DNA of 64,000 bases from an uncultured Verrucomicrobiota bacterium (lineage in GTDB: Bacteria > Verrucomicrobiota > Verrucomicrobiia > Opitutales > Seribacteraceae), in NCBI GenBank assembly GCA_902615835.1, contig CACMQL010000003.1, positions 1-64,000 of the forward strand, read 5' to 3'. The position numbers and the translations under genes were made by a program. Of the stretch, positions 48,110-56,255 are shown piece by piece. A model generated the notes under the pieces. It made no database searches. It was not told where the DNA came from and was given only the letters and a program-made list of their open reading frames with translations. The stretch's first letter is position 1. Each line of letters begins with the position of its first letter.

Positions 48110-49045
48110 TTAATCTGTCGTATTAGTATTGTCGCTTAACAAGCATTTTATCGCACTTTTTACATCACCTATTTGAATTTCGTCAATTCTGCGGGTTGGG
48201 GAACGAATAATTATATTATTCTGATGGTCGATTGGGTATGGTCCATACTTAATTGGTTCAGTTGGTCCGAATAAAGCTATCATTTTTTTTCGCAATGCCG
48301 AGGCAATGTGTAAAGGAGCACTATCGTTGCAGATAATTAACGAAGCATTGCTAACAACTTCAGGAAGATTTCCAAGGGCTATGTTTCCGCGAAGATCTTG
48401 GCACGCAGAGAATCTATTATCTTTGTGATTCCCTGCAATAAATACATTGAAATTATATTCTTTTAGGATCCAGTTAGCTAATTCTTCAAAAAAAGGCCAA
48501 ATTTTCTCATTTCGCCTACTCTCAGGGAACAAAATGATGCTTGTTGCCTGAACAGTATTTTTTACCCTTGAATTGGCTTTGAGATCCAAAGGTAAACTTT
48601 CGTCAAATTTAATGATGCCAAGCTCAGATAAAAAAGGGGTCAGTCGGTCAATCGCATGAACTTCTAGATTTTTGAATTTCGATTCTACAGTCTTGTAAAA
48701 AAGCGTTGAGAATTCCCTCCCATCCGATCTGCCTAATTTCAACTTAGACTTGGAGGATTTAGTGATAATTGAGCTTCGCAATAAACCTTGCAAATCAAGG
48801 CAGTAATCATATTCGAACTTCCTAATTTCAGAAATTAAACTAAGGTAAGCTATTATGCCTTTACCTCTTTTAAAAATAAAATACCTGTCTATCCATTTAA
48901 CTGACTCTAATATGCCTTCCAGTCCACTCTTGATTACCCAGTGAATCTCACATTTTGGAAATTTTACTTTTATTTGCCGAACAACTCTTAAGGCGTGCAC
49001 GACATCTCCGAGCGAGGATGGCTTAACTATAAGTATTCTATTCAA
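48110..49045 (-). CDS. Family 9 (heptosyltransferase-type) glycosyltransferase
   Basis: A 311-residue GT9 enzyme. The N-terminal RILIVKPSSLGDVVHALRVV and the C-terminal ICNDSAPLHIASALRKKMIALFGPTEP blocks are those of ADP-heptose:LPS heptosyltransferases (WaaC/WaaF). It should add a heptose or related sugar to LPS core on the cytoplasmic face. It is divergent from the acyltransferase-GT9 fusion across 29 bases and marks the left border of the A+T-rich envelope cluster. Confidence 0.88.
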   Translation of the reverse strand: MNRILIVKPSSLGDVVHALRVVRQIKVKFPKCEIHWVIKSGLEGILESVKWIDRYFIFKRGKGIIAYLSLISEIRKFEYDYCLDLQGLLRSSIITKSSKSKLKLGRSDGREFSTLFYKTVESKFKNLEVHAIDRLTPFLSELGIIKFDESLPLDLKANSRVKNTVQATSIILFPESRRNEKIWPFFEELANWILKEYNFNVFIAGNHKDNRFSACQDLRGNIALGNLPEVVSNASLIICNDSAPLHIASALRKKMIALFGPTEPIKYGPYPIDHQNNIIIRSPTRRIDEIQIGDVKSAIKCLLSDNTNTTD

Positions 49046-49074: not shown

Positions 49075-50952
49075 ATGGTTTTTTTTATAAAAACATTTGG
49101 TTTCATTTTTGCTCATCTCAATACATCTACTTTGGAGCAGATTGTTTCACTGCTGGCAAAACTCTTCTCTATTTTACCTACTTCCAGGAAACAGACTTTA
49201 CTTTCAAACCTTAGGTATGCATTCCCACAATGGACCGATGATAAAATTCACAGAGTGGCTAGAATCTCTGTGGCCAGAATGTTAGAAATGGGTTTCTTTT
49301 CGCTTACATATCCTTTTATGTCAAAAAGCAGGTGGAGTAGTTCAGTCTTGTATTCTGAAAATACCGAAAAAAAATTATTTGAACTTAAGAAATTGAAAAC
49401 TCCGGTTCTTTTTTTACTTCCTCACTTTGCGCTATTTGAAACACTTGCAACCTCCCCAAACTTTCGTCCATTTGCTGGTAAAAGGCTTGGCGCAATCTTT
49501 AGACCGAATCGAAGCCCCAAACTTGACCAATGGATCGAATCCGCAAGGAACTCCACTGGACTCGTGACTTTTTCCAGGAAAGAGGGGTTGCTGAAGGCTA
49601 AATCTTTCTTGAAGGAAGGTAATTGGTTAGTTGTCCTTTTTGATCAAAATGCTGGTGATAGAGGAACTTTGGATCTTTTTTTGGACCGCCTTGTTTCTTA
49701 CACCACCCTGCCCGACTCTCTTGCTCGAAGTACCGGAGCCAAGCCAGTCTTTATTTTTCCAAGGCGAATTAAGTTCTTTCAATCTAAACTGGAGATTTTC
49801 GAAATCCCGCACGGGAATGAAACATCTATTGCTACCAATTCTCATAGATTGCTCGAAAGAATTCTGAAAACTGATACTGACGGATGCCCGGAATGGCTAT
49901 GGTCCCACGGGAAGTGGAAAATTCATGCAAGAGTTGAATCAAGGTATCAATTATTAAATAAGCGGAAGCAACTTATTGTAGGCAAGGCACTCTGCAGGAG
50001 AACAAACTTTTTCATCAGAATGCCCAATTGGCTTGGAGATGTGTTGATGACAATTCCCGTTCTCTTGGCTATCCGAAAAGGAAGACCCGATGTTAGATTT
50101 ACTCTTGTGGCAAAACCTCAATATATGTCTCTTCTAAGAAAATTTGAACTGGGAGATGATTATCTTCCATTACCAAAAGGAGGTTTTGGCTATTTCTTGA
50201 ATTTTCGTAAGCAACTTAAATGTAGACCAGAAAATTACTTACTTTTTACGAACTCTCTTAGAGGAGATATTGAAGCCTTCCTTTCAGGTTCCAGCCAAAG
50301 GTTTGGTCTTAATTTGCCCAATCGACTGCGACCATTGTTAACAAACGCTTTTGATACAGCAAAATTAGATCGAGATGGATTTCGTCAAATGCACCAGACT
50401 GAAGTATGGGAGCAAATGGCAAGGTATTTTGGTTTAAGGGAACCAATTTCAAAAGAACCTCTCCGTTTTACCAAGATTTTGCGAAATAAGTTCAAAATTG
50501 GGTTAGTTCCAGGTTCCTCAAATTCTCCCGAGAAAAGGTGGTCATCTTCTAATTGGATTTCGCTGATTGAAAAATTATCATCCTTCGACAATGGTTTTGA
50601 TTTTCATCTTTATGGCACCGTAAAAGATATAGGAATTACTAAGGATATTTCGACTTCCTTGTGTTCTGCTAATGTTTTTGATCATGCAGGAAAGACAGAT
50701 TTATCTGAACTTTCCGAAGAATTAGCTTCGTGCGGTTTAGTAATTGGAAATGATACTGGGGCAATGCATCTTGCCAACATGGTAGGTTCGCCTGTGGTCG
50801 TTCTATTTGGACCAACTGACTCAATGAAAACTAAACCATTTTTTGGTTGTGAATGTATTGCTCTACATTCACCAAATCCATTAAAAATAGATCATCTAAC
50901 TTCTGACGAGGTGTTCAGGGTGATGAAGAAAAAGTATGAAAATATTTCCTGA
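49075..50952 (+). CDS. Fused lipid A acyltransferase (LpxL-like) and GT9 glycosyltransferase
   Basis: A 625-residue two-domain protein. Residues 1-290 form an LPLAT domain: a hydrophobic N-terminus, the catalytic HFALFE (H-x4-E pattern, near residue 118) and the GNWLVVLFDQNAG block. Residues 310-620 form a GT9 domain beginning PNWLGDVLMTIPVLLAIRK and ending with GNDTGAMHLANMVGSPVVV and FGPTD. A late acyltransferase (lauroyl or myristoyl transfer to Kdo-lipid A) joined to a heptosyltransferase-type domain would couple acylation and core glycosylation. I see no frame change inside, so the fusion is genuine. The stop overlaps the next gene by 17 bases. Confidence 0.85.
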   Translation: MVFFIKTFGFIFAHLNTSTLEQIVSLLAKLFSILPTSRKQTLLSNLRYAFPQWTDDKIHRVARISVARMLEMGFFSLTYPFMSKSRWSSSVLYSENTEKKLFELKKLKTPVLFLLPHFALFETLATSPNFRPFAGKRLGAIFRPNRSPKLDQWIESARNSTGLVTFSRKEGLLKAKSFLKEGNWLVVLFDQNAGDRGTLDLFLDRLVSYTTLPDSLARSTGAKPVFIFPRRIKFFQSKLEIFEIPHGNETSIATNSHRLLERILKTDTDGCPEWLWSHGKWKIHARVESRYQLLNKRKQLIVGKALCRRTNFFIRMPNWLGDVLMTIPVLLAIRKGRPDVRFTLVAKPQYMSLLRKFELGDDYLPLPKGGFGYFLNFRKQLKCRPENYLLFTNSLRGDIEAFLSGSSQRFGLNLPNRLRPLLTNAFDTAKLDRDGFRQMHQTEVWEQMARYFGLREPISKEPLRFTKILRNKFKIGLVPGSSNSPEKRWSSSNWISLIEKLSSFDNGFDFHLYGTVKDIGITKDISTSLCSANVFDHAGKTDLSELSEELASCGLVIGNDTGAMHLANMVGSPVVVLFGPTDSMKTKPFFGCECIALHSPNPLKIDHLTSDEVFRVMKKKYENIS

Positions 50953-51766
50953 AACTACAAATGTAGTAAAGAAGCTATTGAATTTTAGCGTGACCAGAAC
51001 TCTTAATTATAAAAAATTGAAAATTCCCAGTATTCATGGCATTAAGGTCGGACTTAGTAATGAAAAATGGATGTCGGGATTGATTACAAAGCTTACTAAT
51101 ATTACGGAAGGTAAAATATTTTGGGATGTTGGGGCAAATCTTGGTCAAACCTTAGTGAAATTGAAAACGGTAAACGATTCATGGACATATGTGGGTTTTG
51201 AGCCAAATCCAACATGTGTTTACTATCTGCAGGAATTGATAAAGAAGAATCAATTATCCGATACAACAATATTACCCATTGGCTTATATGTAGAAGATAC
51301 ATTACTTGAACTAGAAACTTATGGAGATGATGCAGATCCTCTTGGCTCTATTGTCAGTAATTTTCGCGAAAGTCGTACAGAATCAAGAAAGAAATGGGTT
51401 TCACTGCTTACATATTCTGCACTACCTGAATCCATTAAATCTGAAAAAGTTGATGTCCTAAAAATCGATGCGGAAGGTGCTGAATTTGATGTTTTGTCCA
51501 CATTGGAACCGCTTATTCAAAAGTACAGACCTTACCTTGTAATAGAAATTCTTCCTGTTTACAGATTAGATAATTATCAAAGATTGCATCAGCAGAATAA
51601 AATTGAATCGTATTTCCAGAAGAACAAGTACTGCCTTTTTCGAATTAGCAAAAAAGGTGGTTATTATGATTGCTTAGATGCAATTGATTTCATTGGTGTT
51701 CACGACAACTTGGAGCATTGTGATTATTTGGTCTGCCCAAAGGAAAAAAGATCTCATTTCGACTAA
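50936..51766 (+). CDS. FkbM-family methyltransferase
   Basis: A 276-residue SAM-dependent methyltransferase. Motif I is FWDVGANLGQTL (about residue 62), and the FkbM hallmark VDVLKIDAEGAEFDVL lies at about 174-189, followed by YLVIEILP. FkbM enzymes O-methylate sugars or other hydroxyls, in keeping with the glycan cluster. The ATG overlaps the end of the acyltransferase-GT9 gene by 17 bases, so translation may be coupled. Confidence 0.87.
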   Translation: MKIFPETTNVVKKLLNFSVTRTLNYKKLKIPSIHGIKVGLSNEKWMSGLITKLTNITEGKIFWDVGANLGQTLVKLKTVNDSWTYVGFEPNPTCVYYLQELIKKNQLSDTTILPIGLYVEDTLLELETYGDDADPLGSIVSNFRESRTESRKKWVSLLTYSALPESIKSEKVDVLKIDAEGAEFDVLSTLEPLIQKYRPYLVIEILPVYRLDNYQRLHQQNKIESYFQKNKYCLFRISKKGGYYDCLDAIDFIGVHDNLEHCDYLVCPKEKRSHFD

Positions 51767-51786
51767 GTAATTTACCTACAGGCACA

Positions 51787-52842
51787 GTGCAAGTCATTCA
51801 AATTGTGAAGAAATTTGGTCCAGTTGGTGGAATGGAGGAATATGTTTTCCAACTTTCCATCGAACTATCCAAGTTAGGTATTGAGGTTATTGTGTTGTGT
51901 GAAAAATCGTTTTCCAGAGATTCTCCTTCAATTAAGGTTATTGAGCTAGGCGAGACTATTAAACCGCGGTGGTTTTCTCATTATCAATTTTCTCAAAAGG
52001 TCAGCAATTGGTTAGCTGAAAACCCACATAAAACTAGGATTATTCATAGTCACGAACGGCAGAGTAGTCACCATGTGTCTACCTTTCACACTATCCCGTT
52101 TGGTCATGGTCGAGGACGATTTTTCAGATTCTTAAGTTTGAGAAATTATTTTTACGAAGAGTTGGAAAGAAAGGAGTTGATGGGACGTCATGTAACAGCA
52201 ATTGTACCAGTAAGCAACAAGCTTGGTGATATAATATCAAACAAGCATATTGCGGTTAAAAAAAATTTACTGGATGCGATTCATCCAGGAGTTACAGCCC
52301 CTATTGTAAACTCACATGGAAGGAATGTTCCGCCAGACGGTGGAACCATTGGATTTATTGGGAAAGAATGGAAAAGAAAGGGGTTATCAAAAGTCCTTCA
52401 GATCTGGAGAGAATTAAAGAAAAGTAGACCAAATTTAAGGCTTGAAGTTGCTGGTCCTTGTCCAGCGGAAATTCAGTCTTTGTTTTCTTCCAGTGAAAAA
52501 AATTACGAACTGTTGGGATATGTAGTCGGCAAAGCCAAACTTTTTGAATCGATTGACATATTAATTCATCCAGCAAAACTTGAGGCATTCGGTATGGTAA
52601 TAACTGAAGCAATATCTTTTGGAGTTCCGGTACTTTGCTCGAGTGAGTGTGGTGCAGCAGAAATTATTAGTGATAGATACAAAAGTTCAGCTTTATCCTA
52701 CCAAAGTAAAAATAAATTTTGGTTGAATGAACTGGAGAGTATACTCTCTAATAAAAAATCAATGGAAGTGTATACAAGATCTTGGGAGCAAGTTGCTCGT
52801 GAATATCTCTCTATTTATGAGTCAATTACTTGCAGAATTTAA
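51787..52842 (+). CDS. Family 4 glycosyltransferase
   Basis: A 351-residue GT-B enzyme starting at GTG 51787. The glycine-rich acceptor loop KKFGPVGGMEEYV is at 8-20; the sugar-nucleotide domain has GFIGKEWKRKG and the EX7E-like block ILIHPAKLEAFGMVITEA, then SECGAAEI. It transfers a sugar from a nucleotide donor with retention. It converges with the next FkbM gene and overlaps it by 21 bases, tail to tail, which is tight even for this cluster. Confidence 0.86.
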   Translation: MQVIQIVKKFGPVGGMEEYVFQLSIELSKLGIEVIVLCEKSFSRDSPSIKVIELGETIKPRWFSHYQFSQKVSNWLAENPHKTRIIHSHERQSSHHVSTFHTIPFGHGRGRFFRFLSLRNYFYEELERKELMGRHVTAIVPVSNKLGDIISNKHIAVKKNLLDAIHPGVTAPIVNSHGRNVPPDGGTIGFIGKEWKRKGLSKVLQIWRELKKSRPNLRLEVAGPCPAEIQSLFSSSEKNYELLGYVVGKAKLFESIDILIHPAKLEAFGMVITEAISFGVPVLCSSECGAAEIISDRYKSSALSYQSKNKFWLNELESILSNKKSMEVYTRSWEQVAREYLSIYESITCRI

Positions 52843-53584
52843 GAGTCTCCGGTTGACAAAAACTAAATCCTGATCCTCTTTTTGGGATCGTTCTAAGCGT
52901 TTGTTTCTTTCAAATGCAAAACTGTGCAGAAAATCCACTATTTGATCTGCAGTACAAATCGGAGGATGCACTTCAATTAATAAAATTGAGATTTCATTTA
53001 GGAAATCAGTTGAACCTTTAAGGACATCAAGTTCACTTCCCTCTACATCGATTTTCAATATATCGGGGGAAGGTACACTGAATTCTTCAACAAACCAATT
53101 TAGTGAAATAACTTCAACGGGGTATTTTTTCCTTATAGTTCTCCGGGAAACCTTTTCCTTCGATAAAGAGGCTGAAATAGGCGACCTGTTTTCGTAGAAT
53201 GTTGAGATGCTATTTCTATCAGCAATAGCGAATTGATGAAGTGATATATTGTTTTGGAGGTTATTTGCTCTAATATTTTCCTTGAACTTGTTGTTTACTT
53301 TTACTTGAGGCTCGAATGCATGGATTTTTGCTTTTGGGAAAAAATCTAGAGTTCGTAGTGAGAAAAAACCACAATTTGCACCAAGATCAAAGAACACAGG
53401 TTCATTTTTCTTAATAAGTTTATCTATTGCCCGAAAATTAAAAAACATTTTCCACAAATATTTGCTGATATAACTGAAAATCAGATCGATTATGCAGCAA
53501 GACATCCAGTTTGCTCTCAGTTCGAAATTTTAGTGGAGACTTATTAATGAAGAAATCTCGTATATGAGAAAAAAACTTAGTCAT
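52822..53584 (-). pseudogene. FkbM-family methyltransferase gene with one frameshift
   Basis: The conserved part (53505 down to 52822) holds FFDLGANCGFFSLR, then ILKIDVEGSELDVLKG and ILLIEVHPP, an FkbM enzyme. The family's N-terminus appears in another frame: from ATG 53584 it reads MTKFFSHIRDFFINKSPLKF and later LLHNRSDFQLYQQIFVENVF, then hits a stop. Removing one base from the T6 run (A6 at 53440-53445 on the plus strand) joins the two. So the gene really starts at 53584, overlapping the stop of the decayed methyltransferase upstream (ATGA), and is now frameshifted or mis-sequenced. Confidence 0.72.
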
Positions 53585-54318
53585 AATTTTAATTGCATGA
53601 ATAACTTTCTTTTTAATGCCTTTCTCAATCGCTTAAAACTCCCAGTTACACTTTGTAGATTTTTTATTTCAATAATTTTTTTCTCATACAATTCAAAATG
53701 AATGTAGGAATTCGGAGTCTCAATAGGTTGAATTCCGTTGAGTGGGAATTTACTAAAGAGCAAAAGATTTTGCCTAAACCAATATGGTAGATTTTTATTT
53801 GAGAAAATGCTTTCACTAAATGGGTCGTAAGTGGCAAAACCATTTTTTTTGAAATGATAACTCTAATATGATAGGAACTGTTCATTAATATGGTGTATGC
53901 CACCTTGACTTTGTATTGCGGCCGGAAAAAAGAATTACATCCGAAGTTTTGATAACATCATTAACAAATCCACAGGCAGAATCTACGGAAATATGCTCAA
54001 CAACTTCGAGACAAATGCCTAAATCAAAAGTCCTTTTCAATTTGAACGAATTTTCAAAGTTAATGTGTTTGAAAAATTTTTTATCTATCTAAAGATCTTT
54101 GATTGGGGTCCATTTTCTATCAATGCCGAATATATCTTTAACCCCAAGTTCGCTTGCAACTTTAAGCCACCCCCCCCACACTCACAACCTAAATCCAAAA
54201 CAGAATTGATACTTTGCACCATATCAAACAGCATAGGTTAAATGATTCGTACAGATTTAACTGAAAGGTTGGTTTGTCCCTTTATATTATATGAGTCTGG
54301 ATTTTTGTGGTCACTCAT
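53581..54318 (-). pseudogene. Decayed class I SAM methyltransferase
   Basis: The 840-base gap around here is a broken gene. From ATG 54318 the minus strand reads MSDHKNPDSYNIKGQ. It then gives SVLDLGCECGGWLKVASELG (motif I), FDLGICLEVVEHIS, DVILFSAAIQSQGGIHHINE, FATYDPFSESIFSNK and LPYWFRQNLLLFSKFP, a typical small sugar- or lipid-type methyltransferase of about 245 residues. It needs three nonsense codons removed (TAA 54238-54240, TAG 54089-54091, TAG 53863-53865) and two frame corrections (C7 run at 54171-54177 and the CCGG region near 53920-53931). So much damage indicates real decay, not sequencing error. Confidence 0.85.
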
Positions 54319-54345
54319 GTAATTTAGTATTTATAACTCACTCCT

Positions 54346-55419
54346 GTGATTTATTCAATTGTACTATTTCTTTCTTGGCCAATTAGGTTTGCATTGAAGT
54401 TGTTTTCGCCTGCTTCTACAAGAAAGCTTGTCGTGCAAACGGCAAAAATAGGTGACTATATAAACTCAACCTGTGTGTTTGATGCTTTATACTCTAATGG
54501 TCATAAGTTTGATGTAGTTATCGACAAAACGAATGAAAGTCTCGCCAGATATGATGAAAGAATAGAATATGTTTACTTGCTAAATAATTTCCGAAAAAAC
54601 TTATTTAGGAAGGCAAAACTGGCACAATTATTATTTGCAAAACGATATTCTGAAGTAATTGTACTACTTCCCAATCAATTTAATCTTTTCTTGGGTGCTT
54701 TTTGCACTCCTAATTACAATGCAACAATTCGAACTTATGACTTTGGGTTATCTAGTAAAATTCTGTCTTTTTCTTATGACAGGTTAATAAGACACGAAAG
54801 GAATCACCTAACACTAGATTCTTATTCAAAATGCATTAAGCATTATGATGAAGTTTCTTACAAAAAATCCCTTAAATTAAGACATTTCAGTTGTTATGAG
54901 ATACAAAATGAAAAAAACTTAAAGATTGCAGGTGTCAGTTTGAGTGCAGGTGCAAAATGGAAAAACCTACCCATCGAAGAGTGGCAGTGGGTCTTTAGTC
55001 AGTTTGCCCAAAATAACTTTTTGATAGCAGTTATCGGTATTGGTGGTGATGAGATTAAATTAAAGAAGATTCTTGCCAAAAGAGATTTTCGTATCATGAA
55101 CTTAATTAATAAAGTTTCTCTGGAACAATTGCCTGAACTTATTAGTCGATTTTCATTATTTGTGTCCAGTGATAGCGGACCAGCTTACATTGCTGACGCG
55201 GTAGGAGTGCCAACCTTGGTTTATGCTGGTCCTTGCCACATGCGTGAACAAAGACCAACAGGGAATTGTATGATAGTTGAGCCTAAAAAAGTGGATGGCG
55301 GTGGTCGAAAATCATATATTTTTGATACCCTTAAGTCTGGGGATTTTACAAAACTTTATTGCACAGACCAGGAACAAAGAGATTTGATTGCTAAATACAT
55401 CAAAAACCTTTCATTATAG
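54346..55419 (+). CDS. Family 9 glycosyltransferase
   Basis: A 357-residue GT9 protein starting at GTG 54346. It has a hydrophobic N-terminal helix, then KLVVQTAKIGDYINSTCVFDAL (residues about 27-48), and at the C-terminal domain SSDSGPAYIADAVGVPTLVYAGP, the GT9 donor-site block. It likely transfers a heptose or other sugar onto the core or O-antigen. It is followed by the DUF6625-like gene after five bases. Confidence 0.85.
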   Translation: MIYSIVLFLSWPIRFALKLFSPASTRKLVVQTAKIGDYINSTCVFDALYSNGHKFDVVIDKTNESLARYDERIEYVYLLNNFRKNLFRKAKLAQLLFAKRYSEVIVLLPNQFNLFLGAFCTPNYNATIRTYDFGLSSKILSFSYDRLIRHERNHLTLDSYSKCIKHYDEVSYKKSLKLRHFSCYEIQNEKNLKIAGVSLSAGAKWKNLPIEEWQWVFSQFAQNNFLIAVIGIGGDEIKLKKILAKRDFRIMNLINKVSLEQLPELISRFSLFVSSDSGPAYIADAVGVPTLVYAGPCHMREQRPTGNCMIVEPKKVDGGGRKSYIFDTLKSGDFTKLYCTDQEQRDLIAKYIKNLSL

Positions 55420-55424
55420 TAACA

Positions 55425-56255
55425 TTGGGAAAACCAGAAATATTTGTGCTTTGGTTTGGTAAACCAACCCCTTTTTTTCCATTTTGGATTAAATCCATTG
55501 AGAAGAATCATGGTATTTTTAGGTGGAGTGTATTTTCCGATCAAAAATTTACCGATTCAAAGTATATAGATAGCAAAATAATATCTCGTAATGACCTTAA
55601 ACTAGCTGTCGATTCGCTTACTAACGGGAGAATAAGAATCGATGTTGATTCCCCACATTTTTCTAGAAAATGTTGTGATTATAGACTGCTCCTGCCTCTA
55701 ATTTTTGGGAACCCGTCATCATCTCATTGGGGGTGGTGTGATACAGACCTCATATTTGGTGACATGCATCAAACACTACCTAATAATTGGATGAATTTTA
55801 GTGCGGTTAGTACACATCCAGGTAGAATGTCTGGTCCGTTCTCTATGCTTAAACCTATTTTCTTTGAGAGTTTTCTGAATGAAAAGTACTCTAGTATAGC
55901 AAGTGCAGAACATTTAAGTCTTAATGAATCAGAGGAATGGTTTAATCTCATAAAAAACTCGGGTTCCAAAATTTTTAATGACGCTTCAATTTTACAACCC
56001 ACAAGAGGTCCTGATGCGTTGAAACTCAAAGAGGCATGTGCTGTTTGGAATAATGGTCAACTTAGCGTCAAAACAACCAAGGGTTTTGTTCCATCATTTA
56101 TGATGCACTTTGGAAAGTTGAAGGGGCACAGAAGGTTTTGGATAGATCAGGATTCTGTTACAACAAATACATGGTACTGTAACCGAAATGGAATTTATAA
56201 AACAAATAGCTTTTTAATAAATTTGGCTAAGAAACTCTTATATAATATGCTTTAA
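55425..56255 (+). CDS. DUF6625-like putative GT-A glycosyltransferase
   Basis: A 276-residue protein with probable TTG start at 55425. The start IFVLWFGKPTPFFPFWIKSI and the DTD motif (Asp106, Asp108) in WGWCDTDLIFGD resemble the DUF6625 putative glycosyltransferases, GT-A fold enzymes of polysaccharide loci. The Asp pair would hold the metal and nucleotide sugar. Family assignment is from memory of such blocks and is moderately sure. It is one base from the frameshifted FkbM gene. Confidence 0.68.
   Translation: MGKPEIFVLWFGKPTPFFPFWIKSIEKNHGIFRWSVFSDQKFTDSKYIDSKIISRNDLKLAVDSLTNGRIRIDVDSPHFSRKCCDYRLLLPLIFGNPSSSHWGWCDTDLIFGDMHQTLPNNWMNFSAVSTHPGRMSGPFSMLKPIFFESFLNEKYSSIASAEHLSLNESEEWFNLIKNSGSKIFNDASILQPTRGPDALKLKEACAVWNNGQLSVKTTKGFVPSFMMHFGKLKGHRRFWIDQDSVTTNTWYCNRNGIYKTNSFLINLAKKLLYNML

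Follow-up and report, generated by a model that had tools for sequence, protein, structure and literature searches.

A gene in the stretch of DNA analyzed here (the window, 64,000 nucleotides from an uncultured Verrucomicrobiota bacterium) probably encodes a bifunctional inner-membrane LPS enzyme that combines late acylation with heptose transfer, the latter most likely as heptosyltransferase II (HepII); this activity is predicted from the sequence and a structure model. Both domains of the protein come from known families, and the more original part of the finding is the coupled decay of its sugar half with ADP-heptose synthesis across the order Opitutales.

The original prediction placed LPLAT features in the first 290 or so residues and GT9 features in residues 310 to 620 of one uninterrupted frame, and the sequence bore this out. 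The frame at 49075..50952 (plus strand) starts with ATG and encodes 625 aa with zero internal stops. Its N-terminal part contains HFALFE and GNWLVVLFDQNAG (aa 182 to 194), and its C-terminal part contains PNWLGDVLMTIP (aa 317 to 328) and GNDTGAMHLAN (aa 558 to 568). The fusion, its parts, and two neighboring genes are as follows.

48110..49045, minus strand: divergent WaaC-like GT9 gene, a HepI candidate of 311 aa with a TTG start as listed (TIGR02193; synteny)
49075..50952, plus strand: fusion gene, LpxL/M-type late acyltransferase plus GT9 heptosyltransferase, 625 aa (open frame, Pfam, AF2 model)
49081..49920, plus strand: LPLAT domain, aa 3 to 282 (PF03279; LpxM 5kn7 fold match)
49423..49440, plus strand: HFALFE, catalytic HX4E dyad, aa 117 to 122 (invariance in 55 fusions; family motif)
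49921..50001, plus strand: linker, aa 283 to 309 (modeled at pLDDT of about 79 to 88)
50002..50949, plus strand: GT9 (GT-B) heptosyltransferase domain, aa 310 to 625 (1psw WaaF fold match; profile E value, 1.3e-47)
50026..50040, plus strand: NWLGD, aa 318 to 322, with D322 aligned with the catalytic base D13 of WaaC (alignment; PMC5713226)
50533..50541, plus strand: KRW, aa 487 to 489, with K487 aligned with K192 of WaaC (alignment; PMC5713226)
50752..50769, plus strand: DTGAMH, aa 560 to 565, with D560 aligned with D261 of WaaC (alignment; PMC5713226)
51787..52842, plus strand: GT4 glycosyltransferase, also 3' of the fusion in the closest relatives (L004, L005, L023, L024, L025, and L052)

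The AF2 model of the fusion (mean pLDDT, 91.9; pTM, 0.89) contained both folds in complete form. It matched the LPLAT fold of LpxM 5kn7 (Z score, 25.1; rmsd, 2.4 Å; 245 aligned residues) and the GT-B fold of WaaF 1psw (Z score, 31.9; rmsd, 2.8 Å; 303 aligned residues), and the GT9 domain matched WaaC (2gt1/2h1h) with a Z score of about 29. Structure prediction of the linker, which had been proposed as a check, gave the pLDDT range listed above. When a profile of 38 fusions was compared with the PDB, the E values were 1.3e-47 for WaaF 1psw, 1.2e-25 for LpxM 5kn7, and 2.1e-19 for WaaC 2gt1. Chains of the plant chloroplast NDH-PSI supercomplex (9grx, 7wff, and 7f9o) also matched the GT9 domain with Z scores of 21 to 22; judging from these fold matches, such chains may be an example of a GT9-like fold that serves structurally.

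In Pfam, the LPLAT half scored 65.4 bits against Lip_A_acyltrans (PF03279) over aa 3 to 282, where the gathering threshold is 22.3. Its HFALFE follows HX4D/E, the motif of LpxL and LpxM (PMC3087551). H117 and E122 were invariant in all 55 full-length fusions aligned, and D190 and Q191 were each kept in 54 of the 55. As a single sequence, the fusion scored 38.5 bits against the NCBIfam subfamily model of LpxL/LpxP (TIGR02207; cutoff, 297.8 bits) and is therefore not filed as LpxL proper; several LpxL-type NCBIfam models aligned with aa 4 to 288, all under their cutoffs. In nearly all surveyed carriers the fusion is the sole PF03279 protein of the genome. The exceptions are G026 and G030, and the latter has a second LPLAT gene in a family f7 context. 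Three close kin of the window genome (G003, G007, and G011; loci L196, L197, and L198) carry a stand-alone LPLAT of about 300 aa, in which HX4D (HFCHAD) replaces HX4E.

The GT9 half matched Glyco_transf_9 (PF01075) in Pfam over aa 467 to 589 with 73.1 bits (gathering threshold, 22). Against the NCBIfam HepII equivalog model TIGR02195, the single sequence scored 81 bits over aa 315 to 591, below the cutoff of 134.6, and thus HepII is a functional proposal and not a filed membership. Because the sequence falls below both the HepII and the LpxL cutoffs, neither exact reaction is certified by these models. In the alignment, D322, K487, and D560 sit on D13, K192, and D261 of WaaC, whose replacement by alanine (D13A, K192A, and D261A) cut activity 4,688-, 926-, and 2,027-fold, respectively (PMC5713226). 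The same work assigned ADP-heptose binding to the C-terminal domain of WaaC (PMC5713226). D560 and H565 were kept in 55 of 55 full-length fusions, and D322 and K487 were kept in 54.

The order ftsH-tilS-serS-GT9, with the fusion running divergently, is syntenic in many relatives, and this conservation points to vertical inheritance. The divergent GT9 gene scored best with the HepI model TIGR02193 (121 bits, below the cutoff of 185.3). This WaaC-like neighbor was present at 30 loci with an intact GT9 half and absent at 46 intact loci; of the GT9-lost loci, only one weak case (G139) showed it. Given those 46 loci and the short flanks, we gave this pattern no weight. Downstream of the fusion lies a glycan cluster (window positions 50936 to 56255) that also contains an FkbM methyltransferase (50936 to 51766), a third GT9-like protein (54346 to 55419), a DUF6625 protein, and a second FkbM-like frame (52822 to 53505, minus strand), which was spotted by eye.

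The GT9 active site has been lost in 46 members of the order, often with the entire donor-binding half. The damage comprises proteins cut to about 440 to 540 aa, full-length proteins whose GT9 motifs are lost (L089 and much of family f15), and LPLAT-only versions (G003, G007, G011, and the G040 group). The shortened proteins (L020, L021, L022, L082 to L085, L098, L099, and others) extend only to the end of the N-terminal half of GT9 and lack NWLGD. Among 139 proteins in which the HX4D/E site could be read, 138 kept the motif; G068 did not. In family f7 (L019, L155, L156, and L158), full-length fusions have decaying GT9 motifs (NNLGN and NDCGG), and in some of them the LPLAT FDQ motif is altered too.

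The state of the GT9 site was compared with the presence of ADP-heptose synthesis. GmhA (TIGR00441) was tried as the heptose marker, and its matches over a broad score range were too ambiguous; therefore, HldE domains I and II were used. A genome counted as HldE positive if domain II matched with an E value below 1e-35 or domain I with one below 1e-40. Weak domain II matches (E values of 1e-14 to 1e-28) were treated as absence; this limit was drawn once the gap in the list of matches had become apparent. An intact GT9 required D322, D560, and H565 together, and apparent GT9 losses in proteins truncated by a contig end were excluded. GT9 was intact in 68 genomes with HldE and 1 without it, and lost in 6 with HldE and 40 without it (Fisher P = 2.5e-23, kinship not corrected for). 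On a 112-tip LPLAT gene tree used for the species tree, with thresholds chosen on the same data and many metagenome-assembled genomes, the GT9 state changed 15 times by parsimony, and the comparison of dependent with independent evolution gave a likelihood ratio statistic of 40.2 (P of about 4e-8). In the dependent model, GT9 loss is much faster without HldE. Of the 178 genomes surveyed in the order, 171 had LpxB, among them all 40 that lack both HldE and the GT9 site, which indicates that incomplete assembly is not the cause of the HldE absence. Since LpxB persists, lipid A is presumably still made in these 40 genomes.

In lineages that lack ADP-heptose synthesis, the sugar half decays and the acyltransferase half is retained. 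Because GT9 loss tracks HldE loss, the GT9 half is best read as a genuine ADP-heptose-using heptosyltransferase. The genome of the window itself encodes an HldE kinase domain (G000:C14:23081-24010; E value, 6.2e-98), consistent with ADP-heptose supply; HldE domain II was not found in this 61% complete assembly. Six genomes (G047, G125, G106, G025, G189, and G075) have lost the GT9 site and kept HldE, and one (G052) has all three scored residues without HldE. Those six genomes would fit an active glycosyltransferase with another nucleotide sugar or position (HepI, HepIII, or a non-heptose sugar), as would the score below the HepII equivalog cutoff, and HepII-like scores are in any case no proof of position. 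However, residue integrity tracks HldE, the profile puts WaaF far ahead of WaaC, and the HepI slot is plausibly taken by the WaaC-like neighbor; we consider this alternative unlikely. Repeated GT9 decay next to LPLAT residues kept in nearly all genomes, together with the LPLAT-only versions, could also mean that acylation is the sole function under strong selection and that GT9 is carried along as a dispensable part, also in proteins whose residues are intact. In genomes with HldE, however, about 18 families of the order retain D322, K487, D560, and H565, as do other orders of the class at 27 to 30% identity. A passenger would not be conserved in this way, which makes this explanation very improbable.

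The shortened proteins lack the C-terminal part of GT9, to which ADP-heptose binding is assigned in PMC5713226. The AF2 model of one of them, L098 (pLDDT, 89.7; pTM, 0.87), has a C-terminal part resembling the N-terminal half of GT9 (3tov, Z score of 15.1 over 143 residues; 1psw, Z score of 13.2 over 132 residues). Across 15 aligned short forms, R338 (corresponding to R337 of the window protein) was invariant and a D two places on was nearly so, despite the loss of catalysis. We tentatively suggest, as a possibility below an even chance, that lineages without ADP-heptose have kept the acceptor-side N-terminal half of GT9 as a noncatalytic half-GT-B module that serves the acyltransferase; it might, for instance, hold the lipid A acceptor by its Kdo/core portion or stabilize the LPLAT fold. 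If so, the fusion would on several independent occasions have converted one enzyme into an accessory domain of another.

Genome searches, of the kind proposed with the original prediction, placed the fusion in dozens of Opitutales species and in further orders of their class. Among named genomes, 43 loci (L023 to L065) were recovered from Opitutales, Opitutia, Puniceicoccales, and other Verrucomicrobiota, with identities to the window fusion of 72% down to about 31%. The closest, Opitutales bacterium AM_1811 (L023, 72% identity), has it in a single frame on a different contig. Of 178 genomes drawn evenly from the order, 120 matched the fusion at an E value of 1e-20 or better, mostly as single stop-free open frames of about 595 to 780 aa. 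Fusions in other orders of the class occupied open frames of 647 to 695 aa at 27 to 30% identity, and in the matches listed from outside the class, the GT9 part alone was covered. As a sign of an assembly join, the original prediction had named relatives with a stop and a start at residues 290 to 310; instead, single frames were seen in dozens of relatives, with identities as low as about 27%. Finding the same architecture in dozens of independent assemblies places the observation far beyond chance. The only apparent split within the order is L018 (G037), whose halves lie in different frames; a real two-gene state was rejected there, as the conserved homologous linker lies in the second frame and a frameshift is more likely. 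In L086 (G437), the missing C-terminal half of GT9 was found in an overlapping frame. Genuine separate neighbors, an LPLAT gene adjoining a GT9 gene, were seen only as far away as the Acidobacteria (UBA2990, L066). A wrong joining of two neighboring genes by assembly or annotation has negligible probability: although the window genome is fragmentary (60.8% complete, 91 contigs) and L018 has its halves in different frames, the full-length single-frame fusion is present in single-contig genomes such as G027, G055, G109, and G126 and in the cultured Cerasicoccus arenae (L064), synteny is conserved, and the junction between the domains is alignable.

Many genomes of the window's own family have no fusion despite the presence of HldE and LpxB. 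Eight members of the order (G143, G042, G060, G074, G095, G135, G159, and G178) have a stand-alone acyltransferase in open frames of 310 to 390 aa, with PF03279 E values of about 1e-60, far above the fusions' scores; this suggests that a conventional LpxL has replaced the fusion in them. A PF03279 acyltransferase was not found in 11 own-family genomes that are 87 to 96% complete (G004, G008, G009, G019, G065, G078, G090, G101, G121, G140, and G164), of which 10 have LpxB and all 11 have a strong HldE domain II match. Lipid A in these genomes may receive no late acylation, or an unrelated enzyme may carry out that step.

A membrane-tethered bifunctional enzyme is the simplest reading, and for it the following order of steps is proposed. 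On the cytoplasmic side of the membrane, the N-terminal LPLAT would add a secondary acyl chain to (Kdo-)lipid A; acyl-ACP is the acyl donor of LpxL and LpxM. The separately encoded WaaC-like neighbor would add HepI first. The C-terminal GT9, most likely acting as HepII (WaaF), would then use ADP-heptose to attach a heptose to the inner core of the same glycolipid. The LPLAT part would tether the heptosyltransferase to the membrane and the substrate, and the fusion would fix a 1:1 ratio of the two activities. We infer the actual acyl and sugar reactions, HepII over another heptose position, and any coupling or channeling. That the fusion links late acylation with core sugar addition is likewise our interpretation, and many lineages have lost the catalytic residues of the sugar half. 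In the E. coli pathway, the HepI step lies between LpxL and WaaF. The pathway adjacency claimed originally therefore holds in that the fused steps are close in the E. coli order but not in that they are consecutive, since the GT9 half resembles HepII (WaaF) and the adjacent gene is WaaC-like. Direct hand-over between the halves is thus not implied; colocalization on one glycolipid and fixed stoichiometry are.

With the fusion, lipid A maturation and core assembly on one polypeptide can be tested across a whole class, in a phylum with little-studied LPS. The sequence predicts which Opitutales make heptose-free LPS, and the recurrent loss of one catalytic half while its remnant persists offers a natural experiment on the reasons for which enzymes of the same pathway fuse. 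An LPLAT-GT9 fusion was not described, by title or abstract, in the non-subscription literature searched.

Among known systems, Acinetobacter baumannii LpxM (5kn7) and the LpxL/LpxM/LpxP family share the fold and the HX4E dyad with the fusion, for which the late lipid A acyltransferase role is predicted. In contrast to them, the fusion has an extra complete C-terminal GT9 domain and is usually the only such family member in its genome. WaaF (RfaF, 1psw) and WaaC share the fold and the residues matching D13, K192, and D261 of WaaC; they are free-standing enzymes, whereas the GT9 of the fusion sits behind a membrane acyltransferase. The Acidobacteria UBA2990 locus has both gene families neighboring in the same order as in the fusion, but as two genes with distant sequences (LPLAT, 22% identity; GT9, 30% identity). 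The LpxC/FabZ fusion, which occurs in Bacteroidetes, Chlorobi, and Verrucomicrobia, is an earlier example, from the same phylum, of fused enzymes in the lipid A pathway (PMC3087551). LpxC/FabZ joins an early deacetylase and a fatty-acid dehydratase, whereas the present fusion would join late acylation and core glycosylation.
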